Assembly (NCBI RefSeq): GCF_030696885.1 | Contig: NZ_JAUYRI010000013.1 | Location: forward strand, 1 to 64,000 | Origin: Thiobacillus sp. | GTDB lineage: Bacteria > Pseudomonadota > Gammaproteobacteria > Burkholderiales > Thiobacillaceae | Direction of reading: 5' to 3' | Length of the DNA: 64,000 nucleotides | Part shown: piece after piece, positions 9,191-63,687 of the stretch | How positions within the stretch are numbered: position 1 is the stretch's first letter | Layout of the letters: each line of letters begins with the position of its first letter | The notes under the pieces: generated by a model | The model's database searches: none | The model's input: only the letters and a program-made list of their open reading frames with translations | What the model was told of the DNA's origin: nothing | Translations under genes and position numbers: made by a program

Positions 9191-11011
9191 GTGATCGACC
9201 TCAAGGCCTGCCCGCTGTGGCTTTATCGCCTGCTACCCTTCCTGCGCTGGTGGCCCAATGTTACGCAGCAGACCTTCAAGGCCGACAGCCTCGCCGCGAT
9301 CACCGGCGCGATGATCGTGCTGCCGCAGGCGGTGGCGTTTGCCACCATTGCCGGGCTGCCACCCGAATACGGCCTCTACGCGGCAATGGTGCCGGCCATC
9401 GTCGCGGCCTTGTGGGGATCGAGCTGGCATCTGGTCTCCGGGCCGACCACCGCAATATCGATCGTGGTCTTCGCCTCGATCAGCCCGCTGGCCGAACCCG
9501 GCAGCCCGCAGTTCATCGGCCTGGTGCTCACGCTCACGCTGCTGGCCGGCCTGATCCAGCTGGCAATGGGCCTGGCGCGACTGGGCACCCTGGTCAACTT
9601 CATCTCGCACACCGTCATCACCGGCTTCACCGCGGGCGCGGCCATTCTGATCGCCGCTAGCCAGATCAAGCATTTCTTCGGGATCGACATGCCGCGCGGT
9701 GCGCATTTCCACGAAGTGCTGATCCAGTTCGGCGCGCACATCCCCGACATTCAGCCCTGGGTGGCGACCGTGGGCGTGGTGACGCTGATCTCCGGCGTGC
9801 TCGCCCGCCGCTATCTGAAAAAGCTGCCCTACATGATCGTCGCGATGGTGGTGGGCAGCGTGGTGGCAACGCTCATCAACCTTCAATTCGGCGCCGAAGC
9901 GACCGGCATCCGCACCGTCGGCGCGCTGGCGGCCTCGTTCCCGCCGCTGTCGCTGCCGGATTTCTCGTTTGCCGCGATCCAGCAAACGCTATTCCCCGCC
10001 ACCATCATCGCGATTCTGGCGCTCACCGAAGCAGTGGCGATCGCACGCTCGGTCGCTGCCAAATCCGACCAGCGCATCGACAGCAACCAGGAATTCGTCG
10101 GCCAGGGCCTGTCCAACATCGCCGGCAGCTTTTTCTCCGGCTATGCCGGCAGCGGCTCGTTCAACCGCAGCGGCGTGAACTTCGCGTCGGGCGCGAAAAC
10201 ACCGCTGGCTGCTGCGATGTCGGCAGTGTTCCTGCTCGCCATCGTGCTGCTGGTGGCGCCGCTCGCCGCCTATCTACCGGTCGCGTCGATGGCGGCGATC
10301 CTATTCATCGTGGCGTGGAGCCTGATCGACTTTCACTACATCCGCGAAATCCTCAAGCGCCACAAGCGCGAGCGCATCGTACTGATCCTCACCTTCGTCG
10401 GCACCCTGGTCGATCTGGAAAAAGGCATCTTCCTCGGCATCCTGGTATCACTGCTGTTTTATCTCTACCGCACCTCGCAGCCGTCGATCCGCGAACTGGT
10501 GCCATCCGCTGCCGGCCGCGAAAATCCGCGCCGAAAATTCGTGCCGCGCGACGACAACAACCCCGGCTGCCCCCAGCTCACGATGCTGCGTGTCGAAGGC
10601 TCGATCTTTTTTGGCGCGGTCGAGCATGTGCAGAAATTTTTCCGCCACGTCGACGAAGCCGACCCGCAGAAAAAGCACCTGCTGCTGTCCGCGCGCGCGA
10701 TCGGCATGATCGATCTGGCCGGCGCTGAAATGCTGGCCAAGGAAGCCACGCGTCGGCGCCGGCTGGGTGGGGGCCTGTATCTGGTGGGGGTACAGCCGGA
10801 CCTGTGCGAAATGTTGCGTCGCAGCGGCCAGGTCGATGTCGTCGGGGAGAATCAGATCTTCCGCCACAAGGGCGATGCGCTTCAGACAATCTATCCGCGG
10901 CTCGACAACGAAATCTGCCGCACCTGCACCGCGCGCGTATTCCATGAATGCAACGTGGCGCTGCCGGACGGCACACCGCGCGAAGTCGCCGACAGGCAGC
11001 TGATTCAATAA
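9191..11011 (+). CDS. SulP family anion transporter with STAS domain
   Basis: 606 aa starting at GTG, with GGAGA 7 nt upstream. About 12 membrane segments fill residues 30-435 (conserved GLPPEYGLYAA and NRSGVNFASGAKT). A cytoplasmic STAS domain follows (about 465-575, MLRVEGSIFFGAVEHV). The tail adds three Cys (CRTCTARVFHEC), not usual in the family as far as I know. SulP proteins move sulfate, bicarbonate or other anions; the substrate cannot be told here. Sulfate export or uptake would fit a sulfur oxidiser. The 3' end overlaps the convergent nuclease gene by 7 nt. Confidence 0.9.
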   Translation: MIDLKACPLWLYRLLPFLRWWPNVTQQTFKADSLAAITGAMIVLPQAVAFATIAGLPPEYGLYAAMVPAIVAALWGSSWHLVSGPTTAISIVVFASISPLAEPGSPQFIGLVLTLTLLAGLIQLAMGLARLGTLVNFISHTVITGFTAGAAILIAASQIKHFFGIDMPRGAHFHEVLIQFGAHIPDIQPWVATVGVVTLISGVLARRYLKKLPYMIVAMVVGSVVATLINLQFGAEATGIRTVGALAASFPPLSLPDFSFAAIQQTLFPATIIAILALTEAVAIARSVAAKSDQRIDSNQEFVGQGLSNIAGSFFSGYAGSGSFNRSGVNFASGAKTPLAAAMSAVFLLAIVLLVAPLAAYLPVASMAAILFIVAWSLIDFHYIREILKRHKRERIVLILTFVGTLVDLEKGIFLGILVSLLFYLYRTSQPSIRELVPSAAGRENPRRKFVPRDDNNPGCPQLTMLRVEGSIFFGAVEHVQKFFRHVDEADPQKKHLLLSARAIGMIDLAGAEMLAKEATRRRRLGGGLYLVGVQPDLCEMLRRSGQVDVVGENQIFRHKGDALQTIYPRLDNEICRTCTARVFHECNVALPDGTPREVADRQLIQ

Positions 11012-13202: not shown

Positions 13203-13344
13203 AGGCTTGTGAAGAAACCGTAGCGAGCGCAGCCAGGTCGGGGGCGGACGGAGCGCAGCAACCGGAATGTACTCAAAGTACATGAGGATTGCGAGCACCG
13301 CCCAACCCCGAGATGGCAAGCGCAGTAGGTTTATTCACAAGCCT
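13203..13344. repeat. MITE-like element with 17-bp terminal inverted repeats
   Basis: 142 bp bounded by AGGCTTGTGAAGAAACC and, on the other strand, AGGCTTGTGAATAAACC (one mismatch). An internal palindrome ATGTACT-CAA-AGTACAT lies at the centre. It contains no ORF of note and fills the recN-nadK gap; its right end reaches into the nadK stop codon. Structure suggests a non-autonomous mobile element; I recall similar sequences between betaproteobacterial genes but cannot verify this. Confidence 0.65.
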
Positions 13345-14215
13345 AGAGTTTTTTGCCCCAGTGCAGCTTCTGCCGCAGGGTGTCGTAGTAACTGTAGGAA
13401 TGCGGATGAAGCAGGGTGATCGGACGGCTGGCACGGGTGATCCACACATGGTCGCCGCTCATCAGATCGAAATGATGCTGGCCGTCGAAGTGGACGCGCG
13501 CATCGTCGGCATAGGTCAGGTGCAGTTCGATGCGCGAATGGCTGCTGACCACGATAGGCCGCGCCGACAGCGTGTGTGGGCAGATCGGCACCAGCGCGAC
13601 GGCTTCCAGCGTAGGGTGGACGATGGGCCCGCCCGCCGACAGCGCATACGCCGTGGTACCGGTGGGGCTGGTGACCACCAGGCCGTCGGCGCGCTGGCTG
13701 TAAACGAACTCGCTGTTGATGGAGATTTCCAGATCGATCACGCGGCCCGAGCCGCCCTTGCCCAACACCACGTCGTTGAACGCCGTAGCTTCGAACACGC
13801 GTTCGCCCGCTCGACGAACCTGGCCGTTCAGCAGGATGCGTTCTTCCGCCACGTACTGTCCGCTGAGAATTTCGGCGACGGCGTCGAACATGCTGTCGAC
13901 CGTGACGTCGGTGAGAAACCCCAGCCGCCCCTGGTTGATGCCGATCAGCGGAACGCCCTGCGGCGCCAGTTCACGCGCGATCGACAGCATGGTGCCGTCG
14001 CCGCCGAGCACCACGACGACATCGCTTTCGGCTGCCAAGTCGTGCAGGTTGCGCTTGGTGAAATCCTCGATGCCGAAATGTTCCGCCGTCTGGCTGGCCA
14101 GCAGCACGGCATGGCCGCGCGCACGCAGAAAGTCTGCCAGCGCGCGCACGGACGCCTGCATGCCCTGATTATCGTATTTGCCGACGAGACCGACGGTGTG
14201 GAAAGGTGTTTGCAT
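13343..14215 (-). CDS. nadK: NAD kinase
   Basis: 290 aa. The GGDGT motif (71-75) and FNDVVLGKGGSGR region are present, as is the glycine-rich TSPTGTTAYALSAGGP that closes the active site. The enzyme phosphorylates NAD to NADP in the cytoplasm. The TAG stop codon overlaps the terminal repeat of the element between nadK and recN, so its last bases come from, or are shared with, that element. It is divergent from hrcA. Confidence 0.96.
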   Translation of the reverse strand: MQTPFHTVGLVGKYDNQGMQASVRALADFLRARGHAVLLASQTAEHFGIEDFTKRNLHDLAAESDVVVVLGGDGTMLSIARELAPQGVPLIGINQGRLGFLTDVTVDSMFDAVAEILSGQYVAEERILLNGQVRRAGERVFEATAFNDVVLGKGGSGRVIDLEISINSEFVYSQRADGLVVTSPTGTTAYALSAGGPIVHPTLEAVALVPICPHTLSARPIVVSSHSRIELHLTYADDARVHFDGQHHFDLMSGDHVWITRASRPITLLHPHSYSYYDTLRQKLHWGKKL

Positions 14216-14244
14216 GAAGGGCGATTATATAGGGGTGCCCGGTG

Positions 14245-14340
14245 TGAGGGGCTAGGATCTAGGGACTAGGGACTCGTTCGCGGCCTCCGGCCGCTCGTTC
14301 CCTAACGCCTAACTCCCAGTTCCTAGCTCCCAGCCCCTTA
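14245..14340. repeat. Inverted heptanucleotide array, copy 1 (nadK/hrcA)
   Basis: The left arm has 7-nt units TGAGGGG, CTAGGAT, CTAGGGA, CTAGGGA (14245-14272). The right arm is the reverse orientation: TCCCTAA, CGCCTAA, CTCCCAG, TTCCTAG, CTCCCAG, CCCCTTA (14299-14340). The centre contains GCGGCC-TCC-GGCCGC (14280-14294). The arms can pair imperfectly. The last unit runs into the hrcA -10 box. Confidence 0.85.
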
Positions 14341-14344
14341 TAAT
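14339..14344 (+). promoter_or_regulatory. -10 box TATAAT for hrcA, predicted leaderless
   Basis: A perfect TATAAT ends 6 nt before the hrcA ATG, which puts the expected transcription start at or next to the A of ATG. No Shine-Dalgarno sequence is visible. No clear -35 box is seen, because that position lies inside the heptamer array. Confidence 0.5.
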
Positions 14345-14350
14345 GTCCCC

Positions 14351-15367
14351 ATGCTCAACGACCGCGCCCGCATCCTGCTGAAAACCCTGGTGGAACGCTA
14401 TATCAGCGAGGGCGAACCCGTGGGCTCACGCACGCTGTCGAAGCACTCGGGGCTGGATTTGTCGCCGGCGAGCATCCGCAACATCATGGCCGACCTCGAG
14501 GATATGGGCTTCGTCACCAGTCCGCACACCTCGGCCGGTCGGGTGCCGACGCCGCGCGGCTATCGCTTTTTCGTCGACAGCCTGCTGACAGTGCGTCCGC
14601 TCGACCAGGTTTCGGTCAACCAGCTCGAAAGCAGCCTGACGCCATCCGATCCGCAGCGGCTGATCGCATCGGCCTCGACGCTGCTGTCCGAGCTCAGCCA
14701 GTTTGCCGGCCTGGTGATGACGCCGCGCCGCAACCCGGCCTTCCGCCAGATCGAATTCATGAGCCTGTCGGACAAGCGCATCCTGCTGATCATCGTCACC
14801 ATGGAAGGCGAGGTCGAAAACCGCGTCATTCTCACCGACAAGCCCTACAGTGCCTCGGCGCTGACCGAGGCGGCCAATTTCTTCAACCAGAATTTCGCCG
14901 GCCACCGCTTCGACCAGGTGCGCGTCAAGTTGCGGGACGAACTCGGGCGCATGCGCGACGACATCACCCGGCTGATGGCGGCGGCCGTCGACGCCGGCAG
15001 CCAGGCGCTCGACCCCAGCCAGGAACACATGGTGGTGTCCGGCAGCCGCCGTCTGCTCGATGTGGAAGAACTCTCCAGTAACATGGGCAGCCTGCGCCGC
15101 TTGTTCGATGCCTTCGAGCAGAAAACCGGCCTCCTGCAACTGCTCGACCAGTCGCGCAGCGCGGCCGGCGTGCAGATTTTCATCGGCGGCGAATCCGACC
15201 TGCTGCCGTTCGACGAATGCAGCCTGGTCAGCGCGCCCTATTCCGTAGATGGCCAGGTGGTCGGCACGCTCGGCGTGGTTGGCCCCACCCGCATGGCCTA
15301 CGAACGCGTGGTGCCGATCGTCGATCTCACCGCCAAAATTCTTTCCAGCGCGCTGTCGCACCACTGA
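14351..15367 (+). CDS. hrcA: Heat-inducible transcription repressor HrcA
   Basis: 338 aa. The N-terminal winged helix ([28 protein letters not shown] cut short here) and the [16 protein letters not shown] recognition region are typical. A GAF-like central domain and HrcA-type end follow. HrcA represses groESL and dnaK by binding CIRCE; no CIRCE is visible within this window. hemH starts in its stop codon (TGATG), so the two are coupled. Confidence 0.96.
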
Positions 15368-18817: not shown

Positions 18818-19345
18818 TCACCTCTCGTACACCACAAAATCAAACCTCAGCGCATCGCCCTTTTCGCCCGTGTGCGATTCGCGCGAGACTTCCCTGAACA
18901 GACCCTTGTCGTAGTCGGGAAACCAGGCGTCGCCCACCGTGTCGATGTCGACCTCGGTCAGGTACAGCCGATCGGCCAGCGGAATGGCCTGCGCATAGAG
19001 TTCGGCGCCGCCGATGAAGAAGGCTTCGTCGGCATCCTCGCACAGGGCGAGCGCGGCGAGGATCGAGTCGGCCACGAGGCAGCCTTCGGGCCGATAGTGT
19101 GCATTGCGGGTGATGACGATGTTGGTGCGACCGGGCAGCGGGCGGCCGAGCGACTCGAAGGTCTTGCGGCCCATCAGGATGGGGTGCTTGAGCGTCAGCG
19201 CCTTGAAGTGGGCGAGGTCTTCCGGAAGCCGCCAGGGCAAGCGGTTTTCAATGCCGATGACGCGGTTTTTCGCGAGCGCGGCGATCACACTGATCCTCGG
19301 CTTTTTCCCTTCACCCTCCACCCTTCCCCCTTCACCCATCGTCAT
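18818..19345 (-). CDS. folA: Dihydrofolate reductase
   Basis: 175 aa. [31 protein letters not shown] is split here only to show its start; it holds the substrate-binding Asp/Trp region. [15 protein letters not shown] and FFIGGAELY bind NADPH. The enzyme makes tetrahydrofolate and works with ThyA. The first 16 codons ([15 protein letters not shown]) are an atypical Gly/Glu-rich extension encoded by a heptanucleotide array. The ATG overlaps the thyA stop by 4 nt. Confidence 0.95.
19303..19337. repeat. Heptanucleotide array inside the folA 5' end
   Basis: Five consecutive 7-nt units on the plus strand: TTTTCCC, TTCACCC, TCCACCC, TTCCCCC, TTCACCC. Read on the coding strand they are GGGTGAA-type units. 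They encode the unusual FolA N-terminal extension. No opposite arm is seen. Confidence 0.8.
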
Positions 19346-24665: not shown

Positions 24666-27203
24666 GTGAGCCGCTCGTCTGGGCTCACGGACGCCCCTTC
24701 TTTTTCGGCCTGCTTTCACTGCGGCCTGCCGGTGCCAGACGGCGCCCACTATCCGATCCAGTTCGAAGCCGACACCAAACAGGCCTGCTGCCGCGGCTGT
24801 CAGGCGGTGGCGCAGACCATCATCGACAGCGGTCAGGGCGCCTACTACACCCATCGCACCGCGTTGCCTGCGACACCGCGCGAGGCCGAAGCCGAACTGG
24901 CGCAGATGGGCCTGTACGACCTGCCGGAAATCCAGGAAAGCTTCGTCAGGACGGAATCGGAGAATATCCGTGAGGCCGCGCTGATCCTGGAAAACATCGT
25001 CTGCGCCGCCTGCATCTGGTTGAACGAGCGCCACATCGCCGGGCTGCCGGGCGTGCTGTCGGTCGAGATCAACTACGCCACCCGGCGCGCGCGCGTGCGC
25101 TGGGACAACAGCCGCATCCAGCTCTCGGCGATCCTGAAAGCGGTGTCCGACATCGGCTACATCGCCCACCCGTTCGACCCCGGCCGCTCCGACGACATCC
25201 ACCGCCGCGAGCGCAACACCGCGATCAAGCGGCTGGCGATCGCCGGCCTCGGCATGATGCAGGTGATGATGTATGCGCTGCCGACCTATACGGCAACCGA
25301 CATGACCGACGAGATCCGGCTGCTGATGAGCTGGGCAAGCCTGATCCTCACGATACCGGTCGTCGGCTATTCGGCGTGGCCGTTCTTCATCGGCGCCTGG
25401 CGCGACTTCAAGCGGCGCATGCTGGGGATGGACGTGCCGGTCGCGCTCGGCATCGGCACCGCCTTCGTCGCCAGCGTCTACAGCACCTTCTCCGGCGAGG
25501 GCGAGGTGTATTACGACTCGGTCACCATGTTCGTTTTCCTGCTGTTGACCGGGCGCTTCCTCGAAATGAACGCGCGCCGAAAAGCCGGCGCCGCGGTGGA
25601 GGAACTGGTAAAGCTGATTCCCGCCGCCACCACGCGACTGCCGAACTGGCCGGCGCGCAACGAGGAACAGGTGCCGGTAGCGCGACTCGCCGTGGGCGAC
25701 CACGTGCTGGTGCGCCCCGGCGAGACGCTGCCGGCCGATGGCGTGGTGGTCGAGGGGGACAGCGCGGTAAGCGAGGCCATGCTGACCGGCGAATCGCTGC
25801 CGGTGTCGAAGAGCGTGCATGCGAATGTGGTCGGCGGTAGCCTCAACCAGGCGAGCCCGCTGGTGGTGCGGGTCGACAAGCTGGGCGCCGACACGCGGCT
25901 GGCTTCCATCGTGCGCCTGCTCGACCGCGCCCAAAGCGAGAAGCCGCGTATCGGCCAGCTGGCCGACCGCGCTGCCGCCTGGTTCGTCGGCCTGTTGCTG
26001 GTGATCACCTTCTTCGTCGGGCTGGCGTGGTACATGATCGATCCGTCGCGCACCCTGTGGATCGTGGTGTCGATCCTGGTCGTCACCTGCCCCTGCGCGC
26101 TCGGCCTCGCCACCCCCGCCGCGCTGACCACCGGCACCGGCCGGCTGACAAGATTGGGCCTGCTGACCACGCGCGGCCACGCGCTGGAAACGCTGGCGCG
26201 TGCTACCGACCTGGTGTTCGACAAGACCGGCACACTCACCCACGGCCGCCTGTCGGTGCGCCGTGTGGTGCCGCTGGGTGGCCGCAGTGCCGAGGACGTC
26301 AGCCGGATTGCGGCCGCGCTGGAAGCCGGTTCCGAGCATCCCATTGCGCGTGCACTGCGCGACGCCGGCGGTTCCGTGCTTTCCGCCAGCGACATCCGCA
26401 ACACGCCGGGACGCGGCGTCGAAGGCACGATCGAGGGCCTTCTCTATCGACTCGGTTCGCCGCGCTACGCCGCCGCCGGCCAGACGCCGCCGCAATCCGC
26501 GGGCGGCGAGCACCCGGAAAGTGCCCACGCCAGTTGGGTGGCGCTGGCGCAAGGCGACGACACCATCGCCTGGTTCGCGCTGGCCGACACGCTGCGCGCG
26601 GATGCCCCTGCCGCGCTCGCCGCGCTGCAACAACTGGGCGTGCGCCTGCACCTGCTGTCGGGCGACGCCGAACCCGCGGTGAAGGCAGTGGCGCAGCAAC
26701 TCGGCATTGCCGAATGGCACGCCGGCGCGCTGCCGGAAGACAAGCTTGCCTACGTCAAGGCACTGCAGCAGCAGGGCCGCATCGTCGCGATGGTCGGCGA
26801 CGGCATCAACGACGCGCCGGTGCTGGCCGGCGCGCAGGTATCGATCGCCATGGGCGAAGGCGCCGACGTCGCGCAGGCCGCCGCCGACATGGTGATGCTG
26901 GGCAGCCGGCTCGGCACGCTGGCCGAAGGCGTGGCACTCGCCCGCAAGACGCAGCAAATCATACGCCAGAACCTCGGCTGGGCGCTCGGCTACAACCTGA
27001 TCGCCATCCCCGCCGCCGCGCTCGGCCACGTCACGCCGTGGATCGCCGGCATCGGCATGTCGGCGAGCTCGCTGCTGGTGGTGCTGAACGCATTGCGACT
27101 GTCGGAATTCAAATCTAAGGAATCAGGATTCAGGGATCAGGATTCAGGGAATGCGCGGCCTCTGGCCGCGGCGAATCTTGAAAACCTGACCCCTGACCCC
27201 TGA
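24666..27203 (+). CDS. ccoI: Cu+-exporting P-type ATPase for cbb3 oxidase assembly
   Basis: 845 aa, GTG start. N-terminal Cys-rich segments (CFHCG, CRGC) come first, then an HMA domain with CAAC. Eight membrane helices follow, with the Cu-site CPC in VTCPCALGLATP. Actuator TGES, phosphorylation DKTGT and hinge GDGIND are all present. This is the CcoI/FixI subtype that supplies copper to cbb3 oxidase; ccoS follows. About 30 C-terminal residues (from KSKESGFRDQDSG) derive from a repeat array rather than the family, so the ancestral end was near LRLSEF. Confidence 0.93.
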   Translation: MSRSSGLTDAPSFSACFHCGLPVPDGAHYPIQFEADTKQACCRGCQAVAQTIIDSGQGAYYTHRTALPATPREAEAELAQMGLYDLPEIQESFVRTESENIREAALILENIVCAACIWLNERHIAGLPGVLSVEINYATRRARVRWDNSRIQLSAILKAVSDIGYIAHPFDPGRSDDIHRRERNTAIKRLAIAGLGMMQVMMYALPTYTATDMTDEIRLLMSWASLILTIPVVGYSAWPFFIGAWRDFKRRMLGMDVPVALGIGTAFVASVYSTFSGEGEVYYDSVTMFVFLLLTGRFLEMNARRKAGAAVEELVKLIPAATTRLPNWPARNEEQVPVARLAVGDHVLVRPGETLPADGVVVEGDSAVSEAMLTGESLPVSKSVHANVVGGSLNQASPLVVRVDKLGADTRLASIVRLLDRAQSEKPRIGQLADRAAAWFVGLLLVITFFVGLAWYMIDPSRTLWIVVSILVVTCPCALGLATPAALTTGTGRLTRLGLLTTRGHALETLARATDLVFDKTGTLTHGRLSVRRVVPLGGRSAEDVSRIAAALEAGSEHPIARALRDAGGSVLSASDIRNTPGRGVEGTIEGLLYRLGSPRYAAAGQTPPQSAGGEHPESAHASWVALAQGDDTIAWFALADTLRADAPAALAALQQLGVRLHLLSGDAEPAVKAVAQQLGIAEWHAGALPEDKLAYVKALQQQGRIVAMVGDGINDAPVLAGAQVSIAMGEGADVAQAAADMVMLGSRLGTLAEGVALARKTQQIIRQNLGWALGYNLIAIPAAALGHVTPWIAGIGMSASSLLVVLNALRLSEFKSKESGFRDQDSGNARPLAAANLENLTPDP

Positions 27204-27210
27204 CCCCTGC
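27122..27210. repeat. Inverted heptanucleotide array, copy 2 (ccoI/ccoS)
   Basis: Left arm: ATCAGGA, TTCAGGG, ATCAGGA, TTCAGGG (27122-27149). Core: GCGGCC-TCT-GGCCGC (27155-27169). Right arm: three CCTGACC units plus CCTGC (27185-27210). It encodes the ccoI tail and ends 1 nt before the ccoS ATG. Confidence 0.85.
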
Positions 27211-27211: not shown

Positions 27212-27385
27212 ATGGATATCCTGCTACTCCTGATTCCCCTGAGCCTCGTCCTCGTCGGCGTCATCGCCTGGGTCATGCTGTGGGCGGCACGGAACGGCCA
27301 GTTCGACGACCTCGAAGGCCCGGGGCACAGCGTCATCATGGACGACGACAATCCGCCCAAGCCGGACGATACGCCCCGGCCCTGA
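27212..27385 (+). CDS. ccoS: cbb3-type cytochrome oxidase assembly protein CcoS
   Basis: 57 aa: an N-terminal membrane helix (about 3-25) followed by ARNGQFDDLEGPGHSVIMDDD. NGQFDDLEGP is the CcoS signature. It assists cofactor insertion into cbb3 oxidase and normally follows ccoI, as here. No Shine-Dalgarno sequence is visible because the repeat array runs to the start codon. The gene is short and easily missed. Confidence 0.93.
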   Translation: MDILLLLIPLSLVLVGVIAWVMLWAARNGQFDDLEGPGHSVIMDDDNPPKPDDTPRP

Positions 27386-38778: not shown

Positions 38779-41280
38779 TTACTTCAGCTTCCAGATCTCC
38801 GCGTTGTATTCCCGCATGGTGCGGTCGGTGGAGAAGAAGCCGCTGGACGCGGTGTTGAGGATGCTCATCCGCGTCCAGCGGGGTTCGTCCTGCCAGGCCT
38901 GCGACACCTGCTCCTGCGCGTCGACATAGCTGCGGAAATCCGCCAGCACCATCCACGGGTCGTGCGGACTCAGCAGCGCATCGAGAATCATATCGAAGAT
39001 GCCCGGCTCGCATTGATTGAAGTGGCCCGAGCGCAGAAGCTCGATGACCTCGCGCAGATCGGAATCGTTCTCCACGTAGGACATCGGCTGGTACTGCGGG
39101 CGCAGCGCCTCGACCTCTTCGGCGCGCAGGCCGAACAGGAAGAAGTTGTCCTCGCCCACGGCTTCCAGGATTTCGATGTTGGCACCATCGTAGGTGCCGA
39201 TGGTGATCGCGCCGTTCATCATGAATTTCATGTTGCCGGTACCGGACGCCTCCTTGCCGGCGGTCGAGATCTGCTCGGACAGATCGGTCGCCGGCGCGAT
39301 GATTTCCATGCTGCTCACCCGGTAGTTGGGCAGGAAGGCGACCTTCAGGCGGCCGTTGACGTCGGGGTCGGCGTTGACCACGTCGGCCACGCTGTTGACC
39401 AACTTGATGATGCGCTTGGCGATGACGTAGCCCGGCGCGGCCTTGCCGCCGATCAGCACGCAGCGGTCGGTCCAGCCATGCAGCTTGCCGCGGTTGATGC
39501 GGTTGTAAAGATGGACAACATGCAGCACATTGAGCAGCTGCCGCTTGTATTCGTGGATGCGTTTGACCTGTACGTCGAACAGCGCGTCGGGGTTGAAGTC
39601 GACACCGCATTCGGCCTTGACCAGATCGGCGAGGCGTTGCTTGTTGGCGCGCTTGACTGCGCGCCAGTCGGCGTGGAAGGCGACGTTCCTGGAATCGGCC
39701 AGCGGCTTCAACTGTTCCAGCTGCGCGAGGTCGGCGACCCAGCCTTCGCCAATCTGTCGGCTGATCAGCGCGCTCATGCCGGGGTTGGCGTGGGCCACCC
39801 AGCGGCGCGGGGTGACGCCGTTGGTCTTGTTGTTGAATTTCCCCGGCCACAGCTCGACGAAGTCGCGGAACAGGCCTTCCTTCAGCAGGCGCGAATGCAG
39901 CGCGGCGACGCCGTTGACCGAGAAGCTGCCGACGATCGCAAGCCAGGCCATCCGCACCTGACGCACATGGCCTTCTTCGATGATGGACATGCGGCGCCGG
40001 CGCTCATTGTCGCCCGGCCATTTGATCGACACCTGGCGCAGGAAGCGGGCGTTGATTTCGTAGATGATCTCCAGCGGGCGTGGCAGCAGGCGTTCGAACA
40101 GCGAGACCGGCCAGCGCTCCAGCGCCTCGGGCAGCAGGGTGTGGTTGGTATAGGCCATGCACTGTGTGGTGATGGACCAGGCCTCGTCCCACTGCATGCG
40201 TTCGTCGTCGAGCAGCAGGCGCATCAGCTCGGCCACCGCAATGGTGGGATGCGTGTCGTTCATCTGGAAGACATTGTGTTCGGCGAACTTGCGCAGGTCG
40301 GTGTTCCCCGCCGCGCGCCACTGGCGCATCGCATCCTGCAGGCTGGCCGACGCCAGGAAGTACTGCTGGCGCAGTCGCAGCTCCTTGCCGTTTTCGCTGG
40401 TGTCGTTGGGGTACAGCACCATGGAAATGTGCTCGGCGTGGTTCTTTGCCTGCACGGCTTCGGTGTAGCTTCCGGCGTTGAATTCAGTGAGGTCGAATTC
40501 GTCGGTGGCGGCGGCCTTCCACAATCGCAGCGTGTTGACGGCGTTGTTGCGGTAGCCCGAGATCGGCATGTCGAACGGGATCGCCAGCACATCGCTGGTG
40601 TCGGCCCAGCGCGCCCGATGGATGCCTGCCTTGTCGTGAAAATGCTCGGTATGCCCGCCAAAGGGAACGCGGCAGGTGAATTCGGAGCGTTCGATCTCCC
40701 ACGGGTTGCCATCGCGCAGCCAGTGGTCGGCTTCCTCGACCTGGTAACCGTCTTCGATCTGCTGGCGGAACATGCCGTACTCGTAATGGAGTCCATAGCC
40801 CATCACGGGGAGGTTGAGCGTGGCGCAGCTGTCCATGAAGCAGGCCGCCAGGCGACCGAGGCCGCCATTGCCGAGCCCGGCGTCGGCTTCTTCCTCGGCC
40901 ACCGCTTCCAGCGTCTGTCCGAAGCTCTGCAGGGCTTCGCGCGTGGGGTCGTCCACGCCCAGGTTCAGCACATGGTTGGACAGCGCGCGCCCAATCAGAA
41001 ACTCCAGCGAAAGGTAATACGCGCGGCGCTTGCCCGGCTGGTCGCGCTCGGCATAGGTGTTCATCCAGTCCGACATCAGCCGGTCGCGCAGCGTCCAGGC
41101 CACGGCGTGGTAGGTGTAGACCGGTGGGCAGCCCTGAAAGCGCCCCATGTGGTAGAACTGATAGCGCTCGAAATCCTGGGTGAAGGCCGCGCTGGTGTTC
41201 GGCAACGGCTTCAAGGCAACGGCACTGGTGACAGCTGGTTTTTCGTCTGGCATGGGGGCTCCCGCTGGATGCATGGTCAT
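38779..41280 (-). CDS. glgP: Glycogen phosphorylase
   Basis: 833 aa. [15 protein letters not shown] near the N-terminal third, [17 protein letters not shown] and the PLP site [15 protein letters not shown] (Lys as Schiff base) are diagnostic. It releases glucose 1-phosphate from glycogen. The ATG at 41280 overlaps the glgA stop by 4 nt. It is the last gene of the glycogen operon. Confidence 0.96.
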
Positions 41281-42749
41281 TGTGTATAGAGGGCAAGGTA
41301 GTGGTCGGCGCTGTCCGACCACTCGAAGGATTGACGCATGCCGGTTTGCTGCAGCCGCCGCCATTGCGTCGGCTGGTGGTAGAGGTCGATCGCGCGGCGG
41401 ATCGCGCCCACGAAGTCGGCCACGTCCGGGCGGTCGAACACGAAGCCGTTGGCGCTGGAGTCTTCCAGCGTGTCCGTGTTGGCATCGATCACGGTGTCGG
41501 CCAGCCCGCCGGTCTTGTAGACGATGGGCGGCGTGCCGTAACGCAGGCTGTACATCTGGTTGAGTCCGCACGGCTCGAAACGCGAAGGCATCATGAACAT
41601 GTCGGCGCCCGCCTCGATCAGATGCGCCAGCGGTTCGTCATAGCCGATTTCGACGAACACCCGATTCGGATACTGGCGTGCCAGGCGCATCAGCTTCTGC
41701 TCGTAGAGCGTCTGGCCGCTGCCCAGCAGCACGAAGCGCGCATCGGTTTCGGCCAGCAGCGTGGGGATCGCCGCCAGCACCCAGTCGATGCCTTTCTGCT
41801 CGACCAACCGCCCGATCAGGCCCAAGAGCGGCGCCTGCATCGACGCATCGTCAACCTGTGGCAGGAACCGTTCGAGCAGGGCCTGCTTGTTGCGGCGCTT
41901 GCCAGGCAGGATGCGGCTCATCGAATAATGCGCGGGCAGGTGCGGGTCGGTGGACGGATTCCACAGCCGGGTGTCGATGCCATTGAGGATGCCGTGCAGC
42001 TTGTGCTGCAGCGAAAGCAACAGGCCGTCGAGACCATAGCCGAATTCGGGGGTGCAGATTTCGGCGGCATAGGTGGGGCTCACCGTGGTGACCGCGTCGG
42101 CGTAGACGATGCCCGCCTTCAGCATGGAAAAGCCGCCGTGGAATTCCACGCCTTCCGGGGTCCACCACGGACCCGGCAATTGCAGCCGGACGAAATCGGT
42201 GTGTGAAAAGTGCCCGCCGTACGCCAGGTTATGGATGGTGAACACGGTCTTCGGCCGCAGCGGCTGGTCGGCCAGAAACGCGGCGACCAGGCCGGTCTGC
42301 CAGTCGTGCGTGTGCACCACGTGGGGCTGCCAGCCGATGTCCAGCGCATCCTGCGCCAGCAAGGCTGCCACCCGCGCAAACACGGTGAAGCGCTCGGCAT
42401 TGTCCGGCCAGTCCAGCCCACTGGCGTTGACGTAGGGATTGCCGGCGCGGTCGAACAGCGGCGGGCAGTCGACGATCCACAGCGGGAACGCAAAATCAGG
42501 ATGGCGCGTTTCCAGGATGCGCGCGCTGACGATGCCTTCGGCGCCGCGCACGTCGAGCCAGCCGATAATGCGCACCTGCTCCAACTGGCGCAGCAGCGCG
42601 CGATAGCCGGGCAGCACCAGGCGAATGTCGGCGCCGCGGTCGTGCAGCGCGTGTGGCAGGCTGTAGGCCACATCGCCCAGCCCGCCGGTCTTCACCAGCG
42701 GGTAGGCCTCGCTGGCCACGAACAGTATTTTTTTTGCTCCGCGTTTCAT
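41277..42749 (-). CDS. glgA: Glycogen synthase
   Basis: 490 aa GT5 enzyme. [13 protein letters not shown] near residue 20 binds ADP-glucose, HDWQTGLV and the C-terminal [20 protein letters not shown] holds the catalytic E-x7-E. No Shine-Dalgarno sequence is visible upstream because the heptamer array ends 5 nt before the ATG. It sits between glgB and glgP. Confidence 0.96.
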
Positions 42750-42754: not shown

Positions 42755-42871
42755 TTAGGGGCTAGGATCTAGGGACTAGGGGCTAGGGGTTGTGCTTCGC
42801 GCTTTTTCATTGACGCGGCCATTGGCCGCACATCCCCTATCTCCTGGATCCTAGTTCCTATCCCCTCCTAG
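42755..42871. repeat. Inverted heptanucleotide array, copy 3 (glgB/glgA)
   Basis: Left arm: TTAGGGG, CTAGGAT, CTAGGGA, CTAGGGG, CTAGGGG (42755-42789). Core: GCGGCC-ATT-GGCCGC (42815-42829). Right arm (reverse strand): CTAGGAG, GGG, ATAGGAA, CTAGGAT, CCAGGAG, ATAGGGG. It fills the glgB-glgA gap; the glgB TAG stop is part of the outermost CTAGGAG. Confidence 0.88.
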
Positions 42872-45063
42872 CATGGTTTCAGAAAAATGGCGCCCAGCGG
42901 CGGCAGCGTCACCTCCACGGAATGGTCGTAACCCATCCAGGGCAGGTTCTGCGGTTGCAGCGGGCGGCCGTTGCCGAGGTTGCTGCCGCCGTAATACGTC
43001 GAATCGGTGTTGAGCACTTCGCACCACGCCGCGCCCGACGGCACGCCGATGCGGTAGGCCGTACGCGGCACCGGGGTGAAGTTGAACAGCGCCACCAGCG
43101 GTGCCGTCCCCTCGCCGCCCTGGCGCACGAAGCTCAGCACCGACTGGTCGGCATCGTGGCAGTCGATCCAGCGGAAGCCGCGCGGATCGAAGTCGAAGGT
43201 GTGCAGGGCCGGCTCGTCCCGGTACAGCCGGTTGAGGTCGCGCAGCACGGCGCGAATGCTGTCGTGCGCGGGAAACTTGAGCAGCGCCCAGTCCAGCTCG
43301 CCGGCTTCCTTCCATTCGTTCCACTGGCCGAATTCGCTGCCCATGAACAGCAGCTTCTTGCCCGGGTGCGCGTACTGCCAGGCATAGAACAGGCGCAGGT
43401 TGGCAAAGCGCTGCCAGGTGTCACCCGGCATCTTGTCGAGCAGGCTTTTCTTCATGTGCACCACTTCGTCGTGCGACAGCGGCAGCACGAAATTTTCGGT
43501 CCACGCATACATCTGGCTGAAGGTCAGCTGGTTGTGCTGGTACTTGCGATAGACCGGCTCCTTTTCGATGTAGTCGAGGCTGTCGTTCATCCAGCCCATG
43601 TTCCATTTCATCGAAAAGCCCAGCCCGCCGAGTTCGACCGGGCGCGACACCGCCGGCCATGCAGTCGATTCCTCGGCGATGGTGAGCACGCCGGGGAAGC
43701 GGCCGTGCACTTCGATGTTCATCTCGCGCAGGAACTGCACCGCCTCGATGTTTTCGCGCCCGCCGTATTGATTCGGCAGCCACTCCCCCGGATTGCGCGA
43801 GTAGTCGAGGTAGAGCATCGACGCCACCGCGTCGACGCGCAGGCCGTCGATGTGGAATTCCTCCAGCCAGTACAGCGCGTTGGCGACGAGGAAATTGCGC
43901 ACCTCGTTGCGGCCGAAGTCGAACACCAGCGTGCCCCACTCCTGGTGCTCGCCACGGCGCGGGTCGGCGTGCTCGTACACCGGCTCGCCGGTGAAGCGCG
44001 CCAGCGCGAATTCGTCTTTCGGAAAGTGCGCCGGCACCCAGTCGAGCAGCACGCCGATGCCGGCCTGGTGGCAGGCGTCGACAAAGGCGCGAAAATCGTC
44101 CGGCGAGCCGAAGCGCGCAGTCGGCGCGTAATAGCCCGACACCTGGTAGCCCCACGAGGCATCGAGCGGATGCTCGGCCACCGGCATCAGTTCGATATGG
44201 GTGTAGCCGAGGTCCTGCACATAGGGAATCAGCTCGGCCGCGAGTTCGTCCCAGCTGTAGAAGCTGCCGTCGGCATGTCGCCGCCACGAACCGGGGTGCA
44301 TTTCATAGATGCTGACCGGGCGATGTTGCCAGTCGAACTGCGCGCGCGCAGCAATCCAGTCGCCATCCGCCCAGGCATACGCCGTTTCGGCGGGCACGCA
44401 GCTGGTGGTTTCGGGACGCGGAAACATCTGCCGCGCGTAGGGATCGGTCTTTTTCACCAACTGCCCGTGGCTGCCGAGGATCTCGTATTTGTAGGCTTGG
44501 CCAGCCACAAGGCCGGGGATGAACAGCTCCCAGATGCCCGAGCTGCCGCGACAGCGCATCGGGTGACGACGCCCATCCCAGGCGTTGAAGTCGCCGATCA
44601 CGCTGACCCGCTGCACGGCGGGCGCCCACACCGCGAACAGGCAGCCGTCGACGCCGTCGATGGTCTTGAGGCGCGCGCCGAGTACTTTCCAGGCCTGGAA
44701 ATGGCGCCCTTCTCCGAGCAGGTACAAATCCGTTTCGCCCAGCTGCGGGGCAAAGCTGTAGGGGCATTGCGTGGTATGCCAGTGGCCTGCGCCCTTGTCC
44801 TGCCAGCGCAGCACCGGATGGGGTTCGACCGCGCTGCCGGCCGGCAGCAGACGCTCAAAGCAGTCGGTGCCGGACACCCGCATCATGGGGCCGCCGGCCA
44901 CCTCGACCGCTTCGGCGGCGGGCAGGAAAGCACGGATCAGCGTGCTGCCGTCAGGCTGGGCGTGCACCCCCAGCACCTCGAACGGATCGTGGTGGGTGCC
45001 GTGCTGCACGCGCTGGATCGGCGGACTGATCGCGGGCAGTGTGGCCGGCCTGGGGGATTTCAT
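42868..45063 (-). CDS. glgB: 1,4-alpha-glucan branching enzyme
   Basis: 731 aa GH13 enzyme with N-terminal CBM48-like domains. Motifs ELMPVAEHP, GLRVDAVASMLY (nucleophile Asp), IAEESTAWP (acid/base Glu) and PLSHDEVVH are present. It makes the alpha-1,6 branches. The ATG at 45063 overlaps the malQ stop by 4 nt; an ATG at 45084 would add seven residues. Its TAG stop lies in the repeat array. Confidence 0.95.
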   Translation of the reverse strand: MKSPRPATLPAISPPIQRVQHGTHHDPFEVLGVHAQPDGSTLIRAFLPAAEAVEVAGGPMMRVSGTDCFERLLPAGSAVEPHPVLRWQDKGAGHWHTTQCPYSFAPQLGETDLYLLGEGRHFQAWKVLGARLKTIDGVDGCLFAVWAPAVQRVSVIGDFNAWDGRRHPMRCRGSSGIWELFIPGLVAGQAYKYEILGSHGQLVKKTDPYARQMFPRPETTSCVPAETAYAWADGDWIAARAQFDWQHRPVSIYEMHPGSWRRHADGSFYSWDELAAELIPYVQDLGYTHIELMPVAEHPLDASWGYQVSGYYAPTARFGSPDDFRAFVDACHQAGIGVLLDWVPAHFPKDEFALARFTGEPVYEHADPRRGEHQEWGTLVFDFGRNEVRNFLVANALYWLEEFHIDGLRVDAVASMLYLDYSRNPGEWLPNQYGGRENIEAVQFLREMNIEVHGRFPGVLTIAEESTAWPAVSRPVELGGLGFSMKWNMGWMNDSLDYIEKEPVYRKYQHNQLTFSQMYAWTENFVLPLSHDEVVHMKKSLLDKMPGDTWQRFANLRLFYAWQYAHPGKKLLFMGSEFGQWNEWKEAGELDWALLKFPAHDSIRAVLRDLNRLYRDEPALHTFDFDPRGFRWIDCHDADQSVLSFVRQGGEGTAPLVALFNFTPVPRTAYRIGVPSGAAWCEVLNTDSTYYGGSNLGNGRPLQPQNLPWMGYDHSVEVTLPPLGAIFLKPC

Positions 45064-46427
45064 GGGGTGTGCGGCGTCTCGCATCGATGGGCTTTCTGTA
45101 ATTGTTGTAGCAAACGGGGGGCCAGCTCAGGGCTCAGCGCATCCCATTCGAAGCGCCAGCTCCAGTTGCCGCTGCTGGTGCCGGGCGTGTTCATGCGCGC
45201 CGCGCTGCCGAGGTGAAGCACATCCTGCAGCGGCAGCATGGCCAGCGCAGCGCGGCTGTGCAGCACAGTGTCGATCATCGCGCCCGGCAGCGCGGCGGGA
45301 TCCTCAACACCCATCTGCTCCATCACCTGGTGGCGCACCTCGTCAGGCAGCGAACTCCACCAGCCTGCGGTGGTGTCGTTGTCGTGGGTGCCCGTGTAGT
45401 AGACGGTATCGGGCTGGACATTCTCGGGCTTGTGCGGATTGTCGGCGTGCGCATCGAACGCGAATTGCAGCACCGACATGCCGGGCAGGCCAAACTGGTG
45501 GCGCAGCGCGGTGACGTCGGGCGTGATGATGCCGAGGTCCTCGGCCACCAGCGGCAGTTCGCCCATTTCGTCGACGATGGCCTGCAGCAGCGCCGCACCC
45601 GGTGCAGGGATCCACGTGCCGTGGATCGCGGTGGGTTCCTGCGCGGGAATCTCCCAGGCCGCGACCAGGCCGCGAAAGTGATCGATGCGCACCAGGTCGA
45701 ACCATTCGAAGTGCGCGGCCAGCCGCGCCCGCCACCAGGCAAAGCCGTCGGCCAGCATGGCCGGCCAGTTGTAATGCGGATTGCCCCAGCGCTGGCCGGT
45801 CGCGGAAAAATAATCCGGCGGCACCCCGGCCACCACGGTGGGATGGCCTTCGGCATCGAGCAGGAACAGATGGCGTTGCGCCCACACGTCGGCGCTGTCG
45901 TGGGCAACGAAAATCGGCATGTCGCCAAACAGCTCAATGCCACGTACTGCCGCGGCCGCGCGTATTTTCTGCCAGTGCATCGCGGCACGGTACTGGTCGA
46001 CCATCACGATCTTCAACGCGACCGCATGGGCGGCGTCGAATGCGGCGAGCGCCTGCGGGTCGCGATCGCGCAAGGGCACCGGCCAGTCGGGCCAGGACGC
46101 ACCGCCATGCGCCGCCTTGATGATGATGAAACGCGCGTAGTCGTCGAGCCAGTGGCGCTGCCGGTTGCGCCAGCCGACAAAGCGGCGCATGTCGACGCGC
46201 GGGCTGCTTTTATCTTCCAGTGAAAACAGCGCGGGATTGACTGCGAAGGCCGAGGCACACTGATACGGCGACAAACCCACCAGCGGCAGCCCGAGCGGCA
46301 GCATCTGCCAGACGCTGAAACCGGCGTCGCGCAGAAAATCCAGCCAGCGCTCGGCGTCGGCCAGCGTGCCGGACGGCAGCGAGGTCGGGTGCAACAGCAT
46401 GCCGGCGCGGTGGGTGTCGAAATTCAT
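45060..46427 (-). CDS. malQ: 4-alpha-glucanotransferase (amylomaltase)
   Basis: 455 aa GH77 enzyme. LLHPTSLPSG, DMPIFVAHDSADVWA, RIDHFRGL (catalytic Asp), VAEDLGIITPDV (catalytic Glu) and YTGTHDNDT are diagnostic. It moves glucan chains between acceptors and helps recycle maltodextrins. The ATG at 46427 shares a base with the preceding stop (TGATG). Confidence 0.95.
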   Translation of the reverse strand: MNFDTHRAGMLLHPTSLPSGTLADAERWLDFLRDAGFSVWQMLPLGLPLVGLSPYQCASAFAVNPALFSLEDKSSPRVDMRRFVGWRNRQRHWLDDYARFIIIKAAHGGASWPDWPVPLRDRDPQALAAFDAAHAVALKIVMVDQYRAAMHWQKIRAAAAVRGIELFGDMPIFVAHDSADVWAQRHLFLLDAEGHPTVVAGVPPDYFSATGQRWGNPHYNWPAMLADGFAWWRARLAAHFEWFDLVRIDHFRGLVAAWEIPAQEPTAIHGTWIPAPGAALLQAIVDEMGELPLVAEDLGIITPDVTALRHQFGLPGMSVLQFAFDAHADNPHKPENVQPDTVYYTGTHDNDTTAGWWSSLPDEVRHQVMEQMGVEDPAALPGAMIDTVLHSRAALAMLPLQDVLHLGSAARMNTPGTSSGNWSWRFEWDALSPELAPRLLQQLQKAHRCETPHTP

Positions 46428-56920: not shown

Positions 56921-57007
56921 TGGTGCCGGGAGGGGGACTCGAACCCCCACACTGTTACCAGCGGCGGATTTTGAATCCGCTGCGTCTACCGATTCCGCCA
57001 TCCCGGC
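56921..57007 (-). tRNA. tRNA-Leu (anticodon CAA)
   Basis: 87 nt including an encoded CCA. Acceptor GCCGGGA pairs with TCCCGGC. The anticodon stem GCGGA/TCCGC encloses loop TTCAAAA, giving CAA, which reads TTG. A long class II variable arm and the T-loop GTTCGAGTC are clear. A possible promoter is TTGCGG (57079-57074) and GATAAT (57055-57050), with an 18-nt spacer, on the minus strand. Confidence 0.96.
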
Positions 57008-61434: not shown

Positions 61435-61752
61435 ATGATTTCGCTCGCTCACGCCCAAACCGCCGCTGCCGCCACCCCAGGCATCACCGACTTCCTGCCG
61501 CTCATCATCATCTTCATCCTGTTCTGGTTCATGCTCATCCGTCCGCAGATGAAGCGTGCCAAGGAACAGCGCAAGATGTTGGGCGAACTGCAAAAAGGCG
61601 ACGAAGTCGTCACCGCCAGTGGCCAGGTCGGCAAGATCGCCAAGCTGGGCGATCAATACGTGGCACTGGAAATCGCCGACGGCGTCACCACCCACGTGCA
61701 AAAACAATCGATCCAGACTCTGCTGCCCAAGGGCACCATCAAGGGCCTGTGA
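61435..61752 (+). CDS. yajC: Preprotein translocase subunit YajC
   Basis: 105 aa. One membrane helix (about residues 20-40, LPLIIIFILFWFMLIRPQ) is followed by RAKEQRKMLGELQKGDEVVTASGQVGKI, the family signature. YajC joins SecDF-YidC in the inner membrane. secD follows after a 120-nt gap that is filled by a heptanucleotide array. Confidence 0.96.
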   Translation: MISLAHAQTAAAATPGITDFLPLIIIFILFWFMLIRPQMKRAKEQRKMLGELQKGDEVVTASGQVGKIAKLGDQYVALEIADGVTTHVQKQSIQTLLPKGTIKGL

Positions 61753-61762: not shown

Positions 61763-61870
61763 ATAGGAACTAGGATCTAGGGGCTAGGGTTTTGCTGCCT
61801 CATGCTTGCAATACCCAGCCCTCTGTCCCCCGAATTCCCTAGCCCCTAACTCCTAACTCCTAGCCCCTAA
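61763..61870. repeat. Inverted heptanucleotide array, copy 4 (yajC/secD)
   Basis: Left arm: ATAGGAA, CTAGGAT, CTAGGGG, CTAGGGT (61763-61790). Right arm: TCCCTAG, CCCCTAA, CTCCTAA, CTCCTAG, CCCCTAA (61836-61870). The centre lacks the GCGGCC core found in copies 1-3. It ends 2 nt before the secD ATG, leaving no Shine-Dalgarno sequence. Confidence 0.88.
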
Positions 61871-61872
61871 CA

Positions 61873-63687
61873 ATGAACCGCTTCCCGCTCTGGAAATACA
61901 TACTCATCGGCTTCACGCTGGTGGTCGCCTTCCTGTACACGCTGCCGAACTTTTTCGGCGAAGTGCCTGCGGTACAGGTGTCGCCGGTGCGTACCACCGA
62001 ACAGGCCGACCCCGCCCTGCTGGCGCGCATGGAAGGCTTGCTGCGAGACGCCAATGTGGCATATGGCGGCATCGAGATGGCGGGCAACAGCATCAAGGCG
62101 CGCTTCGCCAGCACCGACCTGCAGATCAAGGCCAAGGACGTGCTGGAGAAAGGTCTCGGCGAGCGTTACACGGTGGCGCTGAACCTGGTGTCCGCCTCGC
62201 CGGCCTGGCTGAGCTCGATCAACGCACTGCCGATGTATCTCGGCCTCGACTTGCGCGGTGGCGTGCATTTCCTGCTTGAGGTGGACATGGCGGCAGCGCT
62301 GGAAAAATCCGCCATCCGCTACCAGAACGATTTCCGCAGCGAGCTGCGCAGCGCCAAGATCCGCTACAGCCGCATCAGCCGCGAAGGCAATGCGGTGAGC
62401 GTGCATTTCGCCACCCGCGACCAGCGCGACGCGGCCGTCGACAAGCTGGGCTCACTGTTCGGCGACCTCACCTTCGCCACGGCGGACCAGGACGAAAGCT
62501 TCAGCCTGACCGCGCGTCTCAAGCCGGAAGCCGAAACCCAGGTGCAGTCTTTTGCGCTGCAGCAGAACATCACCACGCTCCGCAACCGCGTCAACGAACT
62601 CGGTGTCGCCGAGCCGGTGATCACGCAGCAGGGCGCCAGCCGCGTCGTGGTGCAGCTGCCGGGCGTGCAGGACACCGCCAAGGCAAAGGACATCCTCGGC
62701 CGCACCGCCACGCTGGAAATCCGCATGGTCGACGAACTGGCCGACCCCGCCGCGCTGGAACGGGGCCAGGCGCCGTTCGGCACCGACATCGTGGCCAGCC
62801 GCGACGGTGGCCTGATCGCGGTGAAGAAGGACGTGGTGCTGACCGGCGATTCGATCACCAACGCCGCCCCCGGCTTTGACCAGACCAGCGCGCAGGCGGC
62901 GGTCCACATCAACCTCGACGGCAAGGGCGCGCGCATCTTCAAGGACGTGACGCGCGAAAACGTCAACAAGCGCATGGCCATCCTGCTGATCGAGAAAGGC
63001 CGTGCCGAAGCCATCACCGCGCCGGTCATCCGCGAGGAAATCGGCGGCGGCCGGGTGCAGATCACCGGCATGGAAACCGCGCAGGAAGCGTCCGACGTGG
63101 CGCTGTTGTTGCGCGCCGGTGCGCTCGCCGCGCCGATGCAGATTATCGAGGAGCGCACCGTCGGTCCCAGCATGGGCGCCGAGAACATCGAAAAGGGCTT
63201 CAACGCCAACATCTGGGGCTTCTTCGCTGTGGTGATCTTCATGGTCATCTACTACCGCGTGTTCGGCCTGTTCTCGTCGATTGCGCTCGCCATCAACGGC
63301 TTCTTCCTGATCGCGCTGCTGTCGATGATGCAGGCGACGCTGACCCTGCCCGGCATGGCGGCGATTGCGCTGACGCTGGGCATGGCGATCGACGCCAACG
63401 TGCTGATCAACGAACGCATTCGAGAAGAATTGCGCAACGGCGCCACCCCGCAGGCGGCGATCAGCGCCGGCTACGATCGCGCCTGGGGCACCATTCTGGA
63501 TGCCAACATCACCACCCTGATCGCCGGCATTTCGCTGTTCTGGCTCGGCTCGGGCCCGGTGCGCGGCTTTGCGGTGGTGTTGTGCCTGGGCATTCTCACT
63601 TCGATGTTCAGTGCCGTGACGGTGTCGCGCGCGATGGCCAACCTCACGTACGGCCGCCAGGCGCGCCTGACGAAACTCTCGATTTAA
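61873..63687 (+). CDS. secD: Protein translocase subunit SecD
   Basis: 604 aa. The first membrane helix (9-27) is followed by the periplasmic region with GLDLRGGVHFLLEVD. The later ALTLGMAIDANVLINERIREEL is the conserved fourth helix with the key Asp. Six helices in all; SecD uses the proton gradient to pull proteins into the periplasm. The ATG adjoins the repeat array. Confidence 0.97.
   Translation: MNRFPLWKYILIGFTLVVAFLYTLPNFFGEVPAVQVSPVRTTEQADPALLARMEGLLRDANVAYGGIEMAGNSIKARFASTDLQIKAKDVLEKGLGERYTVALNLVSASPAWLSSINALPMYLGLDLRGGVHFLLEVDMAAALEKSAIRYQNDFRSELRSAKIRYSRISREGNAVSVHFATRDQRDAAVDKLGSLFGDLTFATADQDESFSLTARLKPEAETQVQSFALQQNITTLRNRVNELGVAEPVITQQGASRVVVQLPGVQDTAKAKDILGRTATLEIRMVDELADPAALERGQAPFGTDIVASRDGGLIAVKKDVVLTGDSITNAAPGFDQTSAQAAVHINLDGKGARIFKDVTRENVNKRMAILLIEKGRAEAITAPVIREEIGGGRVQITGMETAQEASDVALLLRAGALAAPMQIIEERTVGPSMGAENIEKGFNANIWGFFAVVIFMVIYYRVFGLFSSIALAINGFFLIALLSMMQATLTLPGMAAIALTLGMAIDANVLINERIREELRNGATPQAAISAGYDRAWGTILDANITTLIAGISLFWLGSGPVRGFAVVLCLGILTSMFSAVTVSRAMANLTYGRQARLTKLSI

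Follow-up and report, generated by a model that had tools for sequence, protein, structure and literature searches.

Four gene gaps of the window (the whole 64-kb stretch of DNA analysed here) each hold, by direct reading, two opposed arms of consecutive heptanucleotides; the question is what these arrays are, how they arise and whether they are put to use between genes. The first-pass annotation, made from the letters alone, had seen in them one design of opposed YYAGGNN arms, and this was confirmed in all four gaps. We believe, with moderate confidence, that these Thiobacillus hairpins are built and kept by slippage and template switching, and that they are presumably used or tolerated as looped-out intercistronic RNA. 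We infer that they represent, in Thiobacillus, a class widespread among bacteria, the intergenic hairpins made from heptanucleotide simple-sequence repeats.

Results

Arrays of the window

According to Pfam and NCBIfam, the flanking genes are divergent at nadK|hrcA and co-directional at ccoI-like ATPase-ccoS, glgB-glgA and yajC-secD. Arms were read directly, cores were found by an exact-core search, and genes were assigned by Pfam/NCBIfam; "TRF" marks arms also found by Tandem Repeats Finder.

13343..14215, minus: nadK (NAD kinase)
14224..14229, minus: opposing TATAAT box on the nadK side, 8 nt from the nadK ATG
14247..14274, plus: nadK/hrcA left heptad arm (CTAGGAT, CTAGGGA, CTAGGGA), TRF
14280..14294, no strand: nadK/hrcA core GCGGCC-TCC-GGCCGC
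14299..14338, plus: nadK/hrcA right heptad arm, C-rich, degenerate
14339..14344, plus: TATAAT box on the hrcA side, 6 nt 5' of the hrcA ATG
14351..15367, plus: hrcA
19307..19337, plus: one-armed heptad array of a different unit, CCCTTCA, near a gene border (TRF)
24666..27203, plus: ccoI-like heavy-metal P-type ATPase
27118..27150, plus: ccoI-like/ccoS left heptad arm (TCAGGAT and TCAGGGA in alternation), TRF
27155..27169, no strand: ccoI-like/ccoS core GCGGCC-TCT-GGCCGC
27185..27210, plus: ccoI-like/ccoS right heptad arm (CCTGACC x3.6, perfect), stopping just short of the ccoS ATG at 27212, TRF
27212..27373, plus: ccoS (FixS family), the end being that of the predicted ORF
41277..42749, minus: glgA (glycogen synthase)
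42756..42789, plus: heptad arm on the glgA-start side (TTAGGGG, CTAGGAT, CTAGGGA and CTAGGGG x2 on the plus strand), TRF
42815..42829, no strand: glgB-glgA core GCGGCC-ATT-GGCCGC
42833..42863, plus: opposed heptad arm on the glgB-stop side, degenerate
42868..45084, minus: glgB (branching enzyme)
61435..61752, plus: yajC
61763..61788, plus: yajC-secD left heptad arm, TRF
61837..61871, plus: yajC-secD right heptad arm, just short of the secD ATG (61873), TRF
61873..63687, plus: secD

Tandem Repeats Finder placed its arms at 14247-14274, 27118-27150, 27185-27209, 42756-42789, 61760-61781 and 61837-61871; the right arms of nadK/hrcA and glgB-glgA, which are degenerate, are absent from its list. 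Rfam at gathering score left the arrays unmatched, its sole match in the 64-kb window being a tRNA (56924-57007).

The ccoI-like frame traverses the left arm and the core and stops within the right arm (27118-27203), so that the repeat codes for the C-terminal tail of the protein. Several relatives have a direct CAAG array ahead of the ccoI-like stop. Elsewhere in the window (38472-38499) a 14-nt unit, AATGGGGTCAGACT, stands in two perfect copies; it is not a heptad of the YYAGGNN type.

Copies in the genome

The genome to which the window belongs (G000) comprises 3.0 Mb in 35 contigs. Four consecutive YYAGGNN units match there at 53 + 36 positions, overlapping positions within one array each being counted, against 0 + 0 for the reversed pattern; further copies, as expected by the first-pass annotation, thus exist. 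At least one such match occurs in 59 of the 399 genomes of the order, and the reversed pattern also matches in a number of these, so that it is a clean null for this genome and not for the order.

We read 22 elements in the genome, 20 of which are two-armed by the pattern used; ten lie within 400 kb of contig C17. They occur between genes of an operon, in convergent gaps and in one divergent promoter, are often flush with stop or start codons, and often start at or within the last codons of a gene. Examples are the gcvT-gcvH and gcvH-gcvPA gaps, the region upstream of gcvPB and the accB-accC-prmA gaps; other junctions, which from protein starts read by eye, without a search, we take to be tatA-tatB, glyA-nrdR, ompR-envZ, fba and gap, belong here as well. 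Placement was derived from crude gene calls, with some neighbours mis-assigned. Two elements lie between convergent ORFs (L020 and L027), a count that leaves out the gap at 334.6 kb of C17, beyond which a 663-aa ORF overlaps an opposed ORF of 168-180 aa; locus L028 has arms. The idea that the arrays end near a start codon consequently holds in part: proximity to a start is one context, convergent gaps and the divergent promoter hold such elements too, and the first array of the window ends at the TATAAT box, 6 nt ahead of the hrcA ATG.

The 22 elements contain 158 units, listed with a search aimed at YYAGG that presets the unit type; the commonest are CTAGGGG (23/158) and TCAGGGG (19/158), both G4N3 units, and many others are AGGAT units with two Gs. 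Arms differ less within an element than between elements (1.84 vs 2.15; p 0.007; 20 paired elements of this genome). Seventeen of 18 elements of the genome are in G..C arm order, none being read in the reverse order, and in 44 of 44 two-armed cases (37 YYAGG, 4 CAAG, 3 AGC) the G-rich arm precedes the C-rich one.

Period 7 is prominent in the gaps and not in raw genome counts, because whole-stretch counts, which include coding sequence, are no lower at periods 5 and 6 (16, 21 and 13 tandem arrays at periods 5, 6 and 7 in this genome); period 7 does not exceed other periods in two of three samples. A lag-7 detector marked 6 segments in the window, 5 in C17 and 3 in T. thioparus, and lags 3, 6, 14 and 15 also gave several. 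An inverted detector, which asks fewer matches at period 6 than at 7, found more at period 6 than at 7 (mostly 5 in a laxer setting).

The GCGGCC core

The core GCGGCC-N3-GGCCGC was said to lie in the first three arrays, and three exact copies were indeed found in the window, all within arrays (shuffle mean 0.09; 0 of 100 shuffles reach 3); between the arms of yajC-secD there is none, again as annotated. With one mismatch permitted, the window holds 4 against 3.2 expected, so that only the exact core is informative. Genome-wide, 14 exact cores were found vs 5 for the reversed pattern; all 14 were read, and 10 sit in heptad arrays. Among 18 elements found mainly through their arms, not the core, the palindrome GCGGC-N3..5-GCCGC is present with at most one mismatch in 12 and exactly in 9; among 2000 random 125-nt stretches of C17 the corresponding counts are 385 and 31. 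The GCGGC...GCCGC core therefore recurs across elements with different arm sequences.

Such recurrence, together with the empty sites described below, would be expected of a REP/RAYT-like or MITE-like mobile element, a transposase copying the core palindrome plus arms. REP/RAYT elements have a GTAG-type tetranucleotide beside a palindrome; by eye, none was noticed in the core flanks of the elements of this genome. The Y1 transposase family PF01797 has 0 matches in G000 at E <= 0.001, whereas a match occurs in 40 of the 55 congeners scanned, and dispersal driven by a RAYT was rejected on this ground. Moreover, between the filled and empty glgB-glgA alleles the entire spacer is exchanged, with no visible target duplication. 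A resident Y1 enzyme is partly refuted and a past or foreign one is possible; we hold the mobile-element explanation as a whole to be very unlikely.

Orthologous gaps

HrcA relatives at 84-92% identity number 44 among the best 80 of 543 loci, 26 of them bearing the name Thiobacillus and one that of Thiobacillaceae, which places the window in a Thiobacillus-like genome. The four sites were compared in 40 to 50 of the 56 genomes of the genus. Among lags 4-13, lag 7 is best in 37/47 gaps at hrcA, 26/40 at ccoS, 17/50 at glgA and 28/48 at secD, the control being 5/184 stretches farther upstream, mostly coding.

The unit itself is replaced. Between the two TATAAT boxes the hrcA gaps carry four unit classes, YYAGGNN, RTRAGCG, GAGAGCG and CAAGNNN, assigned by eye in 30 of 47 gaps, the other 17 being left out; lag 7 is best in 28/30 classified and 9/17 unclassified gaps. 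On the best hrcA tree the unit class changes 10 times among the 30 gaps, and starred branches force 2 to 5 changes per unit class; the classes cluster on the tree, as none of 200 shuffles needs so few changes. Even close pairs may differ in class (G030/G053 at 96.5% hrcA identity, G020/G025 at 95.4%). These counts are to be read with unit classes and filled states assigned partly by eye, MAG assemblies that may contain errors and predicted gene starts. By inspection the classes are mutational neighbours (ATTCAGG to ATTCAAG, 1 change; GTCAGGG to GTGAGCG, 2; GTGAGCG to GAGAGCG, 1), and one class could turn into another through a single point change that is then homogenised.

A strict rule of one concerted unit per genome, suggested by the differences between species in their hrcA arrays, was considered and rejected because single genomes contain several classes: G009 has CAAG at hrcA and TCAGG at glgA, and G055 has RTRAGC at hrcA and YYAGG at secD. 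There may be a unit preference at the genome level.

The hrcA TATAAT-ATG spacing is 6 nt in 46 of 47 genomes and 7 nt in the remaining one; on the nadK side the box was found in 46 genomes, and in 40 of these it stands 8 nt from the ATG. Judging by these distances, the nadK and hrcA mRNAs look leaderless, the array occupying the place of the -35 regions.

With its own partner, each half of the hrcA gap pairs on average at -39.9 kcal/mol, vs -30.1 when the halves are swapped, and 0 of 5000 permutations, which disregard phylogeny, were as low (G046 was left out). The own arm is among the five best partners in 22/46 gaps and the top partner in 5/46; in the YYAGG gap of G030 it ranks 27 of 45. In many relatives one arm is absent or the arms pair poorly. 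Taken together, these comparisons suggest that what persists is the shape and the period rather than the precise letters.

In two relatives (L052 and L068) the C-rich arm just upstream of hrcA consists of 12 and 9 perfect CCCCTGA copies, likely a recent expansion. Such perfect runs, and the turnover of the unit between orthologous sites, mean that slippage-like homogenisation belongs to the evolution of the family. The first-pass annotation had argued for a real dispersed family rather than slippage; the first half stands, as the arrays are not due to chance, have copies and empty sites and share a recurring core, while the second half was a false choice.

It is at this point that G-quadruplexes may be weighed, in which the G-rich strand would fold and act on transcription or replication. 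The two commonest units in the genome, CTAGGGG and TCAGGGG, are of the G4N3 kind, and the placement matches that of the published GGGNATC repeats, as far as the relevant parts of that report go (PMC4692102). Judged by a four-G-tract criterion on the sequence, AGGGG units fit, but AGGAT (two Gs), CAAG and RTRAGC units do not; typical CAAGNNN, RTRAGCG and GAGAGCG units at the orthologous site have no three-G runs, and yet the period is kept. Because the unit turns over while the 7-nt period stays, G-quadruplexes are a weak general account of the arrays, one that we regard as highly improbable.

Filled and empty alleles at glgB-glgA

Empty sites in relatives, which the first-pass annotation had proposed to look for, are present at glgB-glgA, where the spacer of many species is short and lacks an array (G010 is among them). 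On the hrcA tree, the filled/empty state changes 11 times, 7 of these forced by well-supported branches (43 genomes, 13 filled; G036 and three genomes without gap sequence are omitted); on the glgA tree it changes 7 times, 6 forced (30 genomes, 9 filled). On neither tree do the states cluster more than in shuffles.

In five filled/empty pairs the whole spacer is replaced, with no clear target duplication, and a clean insertion into an empty site was rejected because the entire spacer is exchanged. In G009/G010 the final ~40 nt of glgB also diverge, as expected from recombination.

The scattered presence and absence, no more clustered than by shuffling, is what one would expect if the arrays were a neutral or selfish filler: heptad expansions would colonise spacers until harmful, and palindromy would be a functionless by-product of template switching. 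The same can be said of the occurrence in every gap type, often from the last codons of a gene, of the free identity of the unit, and of the missing arm or weak pairing in many relatives. Against a filler speak the higher average complementarity of arms to their own partner, the polarity of 44/44, and the 7-nt period kept in 37/47 relatives at nadK/hrcA between boxes of nearly fixed spacing. We consider such a filler possible, though on balance doubtful.

Translation, folding and termination

The reported lack of a Shine-Dalgarno (SD) sequence was borne out: at -20..-1, the three co-directional sites of the window reach anti-SD energies no better than +0.6 to +1.3 kcal/mol. Thirteen of 14 junctions of the genome were scored (one was dropped, its start lying beyond the excerpt); the SD is missing at -20..-1 in 10 and ordinary in 3, and the folding energies run from -51.9 to -90.4 kcal/mol. 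An SD-like stretch, scored without a control, is located at the stop codon or else at the stem's 5' base in six or seven of them (e.g., accB, glgB and yajC); in the remaining ones the best such stretch falls in an arm or in the coding end.

The comparison between relatives, which omitted gaps with a single heptad pair or no recognised start (46/52 kept at glgA), shows a contrast at glgA. Of the 31 gaps lacking AGG heptads, 28 have an SD energy of -3.2 or lower, vs 0 of the 15 filled ones (medians -3.5 and 0.2; strongest filled value -2.2), and at a threshold of -4 the counts are 11/31 vs 0/15. At ccoS they are 10/34 without AGG heptads vs 0/6 with them, at the same threshold. At secD (0/21 vs 0/19; medians 0.7 and 0.7) the SD is weak whether AGG heptads are present or not, so that this gene gives no support for the contrast. 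A literature search for a split SD found nothing.

A terminator scan, limited to loops of 3-8 nt, covered the three co-directional arrays of the window and five arrays of L212 and found no candidate on the strand that is transcribed; in L212 it gave one match on the opposite strand (10830-10844). At the gap-like junction, TTTTT stands 8 nt past the stem.

Discussion

Proposed origin and possible use

The explanation by slippage and template switching, which we prefer, may be set out as follows. Replication slippage would add, remove and homogenise tandem units, and changes would pass from one arm to the other when the template is switched within the quasi-palindrome. Template switching is described as able to create and maintain RNA hairpins in the pertinent portion of PMC8794818. 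A point mutation in one unit could sweep both arms, and therefore the unit would change while period and pairing stay. Alleles may also cross species by recombination at the flanking genes.

In co-directional gaps the stem of the transcript would span almost from the stop codon to the start codon. It would loop the insert out and bring the AUG close to the stop of the upstream gene and to the G-rich side at 5'; downstream translation would then proceed via coupling, or with an SD supplied from the far side of the stem. Coupling is inapplicable at some elements, because convergent gaps (L020, L027) and the divergent promoter hold them. A further point against this reading is that the CAAG and RTRAGC arms are not SD-like.

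It is tempting to go further and to propose that selection keeps a sequence-independent hairpin of 7-nt period, which hands the upstream stop or SD to the start codon while the unit drifts by concerted slippage and template switching; we consider this unlikely. If true, such a device would explain intergenic heptamers without G-quadruplexes or a sequence-specific binder. When one gap holds four unit classes across a genus, nearly always with the 7-nt period and in many cases with opposed arms, period and fold can be told apart from sequence, so that the G-quadruplex, protein-binding and hairpin accounts become directly testable, and the scattered filled and empty glgB-glgA alleles are natural pairs for an expression comparison.

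Relation to known repeats

Heptanucleotide units in direct arrays are known from the cyanobacterial STRR. For Thiobacillus, a literature search in which subscription journals were thinly covered showed no description of such repeats in the titles and abstract openings of the 20 papers listed among 33. The first-pass annotation knew of no betaproteobacterial counterpart; a published one exists outside betaproteobacteria, namely the inverted heptamer pairs of Xanthomonas (Rehm et al. 2015, PMC4692102). The words Thiobacillus and betaproteobacter are absent from that paper. Its parts considered here report GGGNATC heptamers in Xanthomonas and Nostoc that lie for the most part between genes; two Xanthomonas genomes contain 70 and 75 inverted pairs in convergent orientation, and 83% of the repeats are common to the two species. 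They further report a preference for the antisense strand within 50 bp ahead of an ORF, or for the sense strand within 50 bp past a stop, and propose a G-quadruplex. The likeness to the Thiobacillus arrays lies in the 7-nt period within gene gaps, the convergent inverted pairs and the placement. The unit is different, neither GGGAATC nor GGGANTN but, by direct reading of the four window arrays, YYAGGNN. An idea that the unit serves to place stops in all frames was dropped, because GGGAATC arrays contain no stop.

Beyond what those same parts describe, the Thiobacillus arrays have three more unit classes, a GC-rich core hairpin, unit turnover at orthologous sites, filled and empty alleles with an SD contrast at one gene, and several classes unlikely to form G-quadruplexes. 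Inverted heptamer pairs, their conservation and their placement are thus already known from Xanthomonas, as its published portions considered here attest; the turnover with kept period and pairing, the core, the filled and empty glgB-glgA alleles and the SD contrast at one gene look new.

Two other reports bear on the subject, likewise through selected passages. The TAACTGA repeats of Beggiatoaceae, for which the author suggested a translational role and reported SD scarcity as well, form 169 sets of direct repeats with one indirect repeat in that genome (MacGregor 2015, PMC4679880); the four window arrays contain neither this unit nor its direct arrangement. The SPADE survey describes tandem heptamers as the most abundant intergenic repeats across many prokaryotes, with no clear functional clue (PMC6344855); inverted arms and orthologous turnover are not treated in the passages concerned.

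Two minor observations concern the wider order. Heptad arrays stand at contig ends (G000:C23:106, G212:C23:1, G125:C4:25); therefore long arrays may break assemblies and escape counts. In one other genus, G078 has 43 + 46 YYAGG positions and G125 has 71 + 58 of the reversed type, and the dominant heptamer differs within that genus, CTAGGGG in G078 and GGATTGA in G125.
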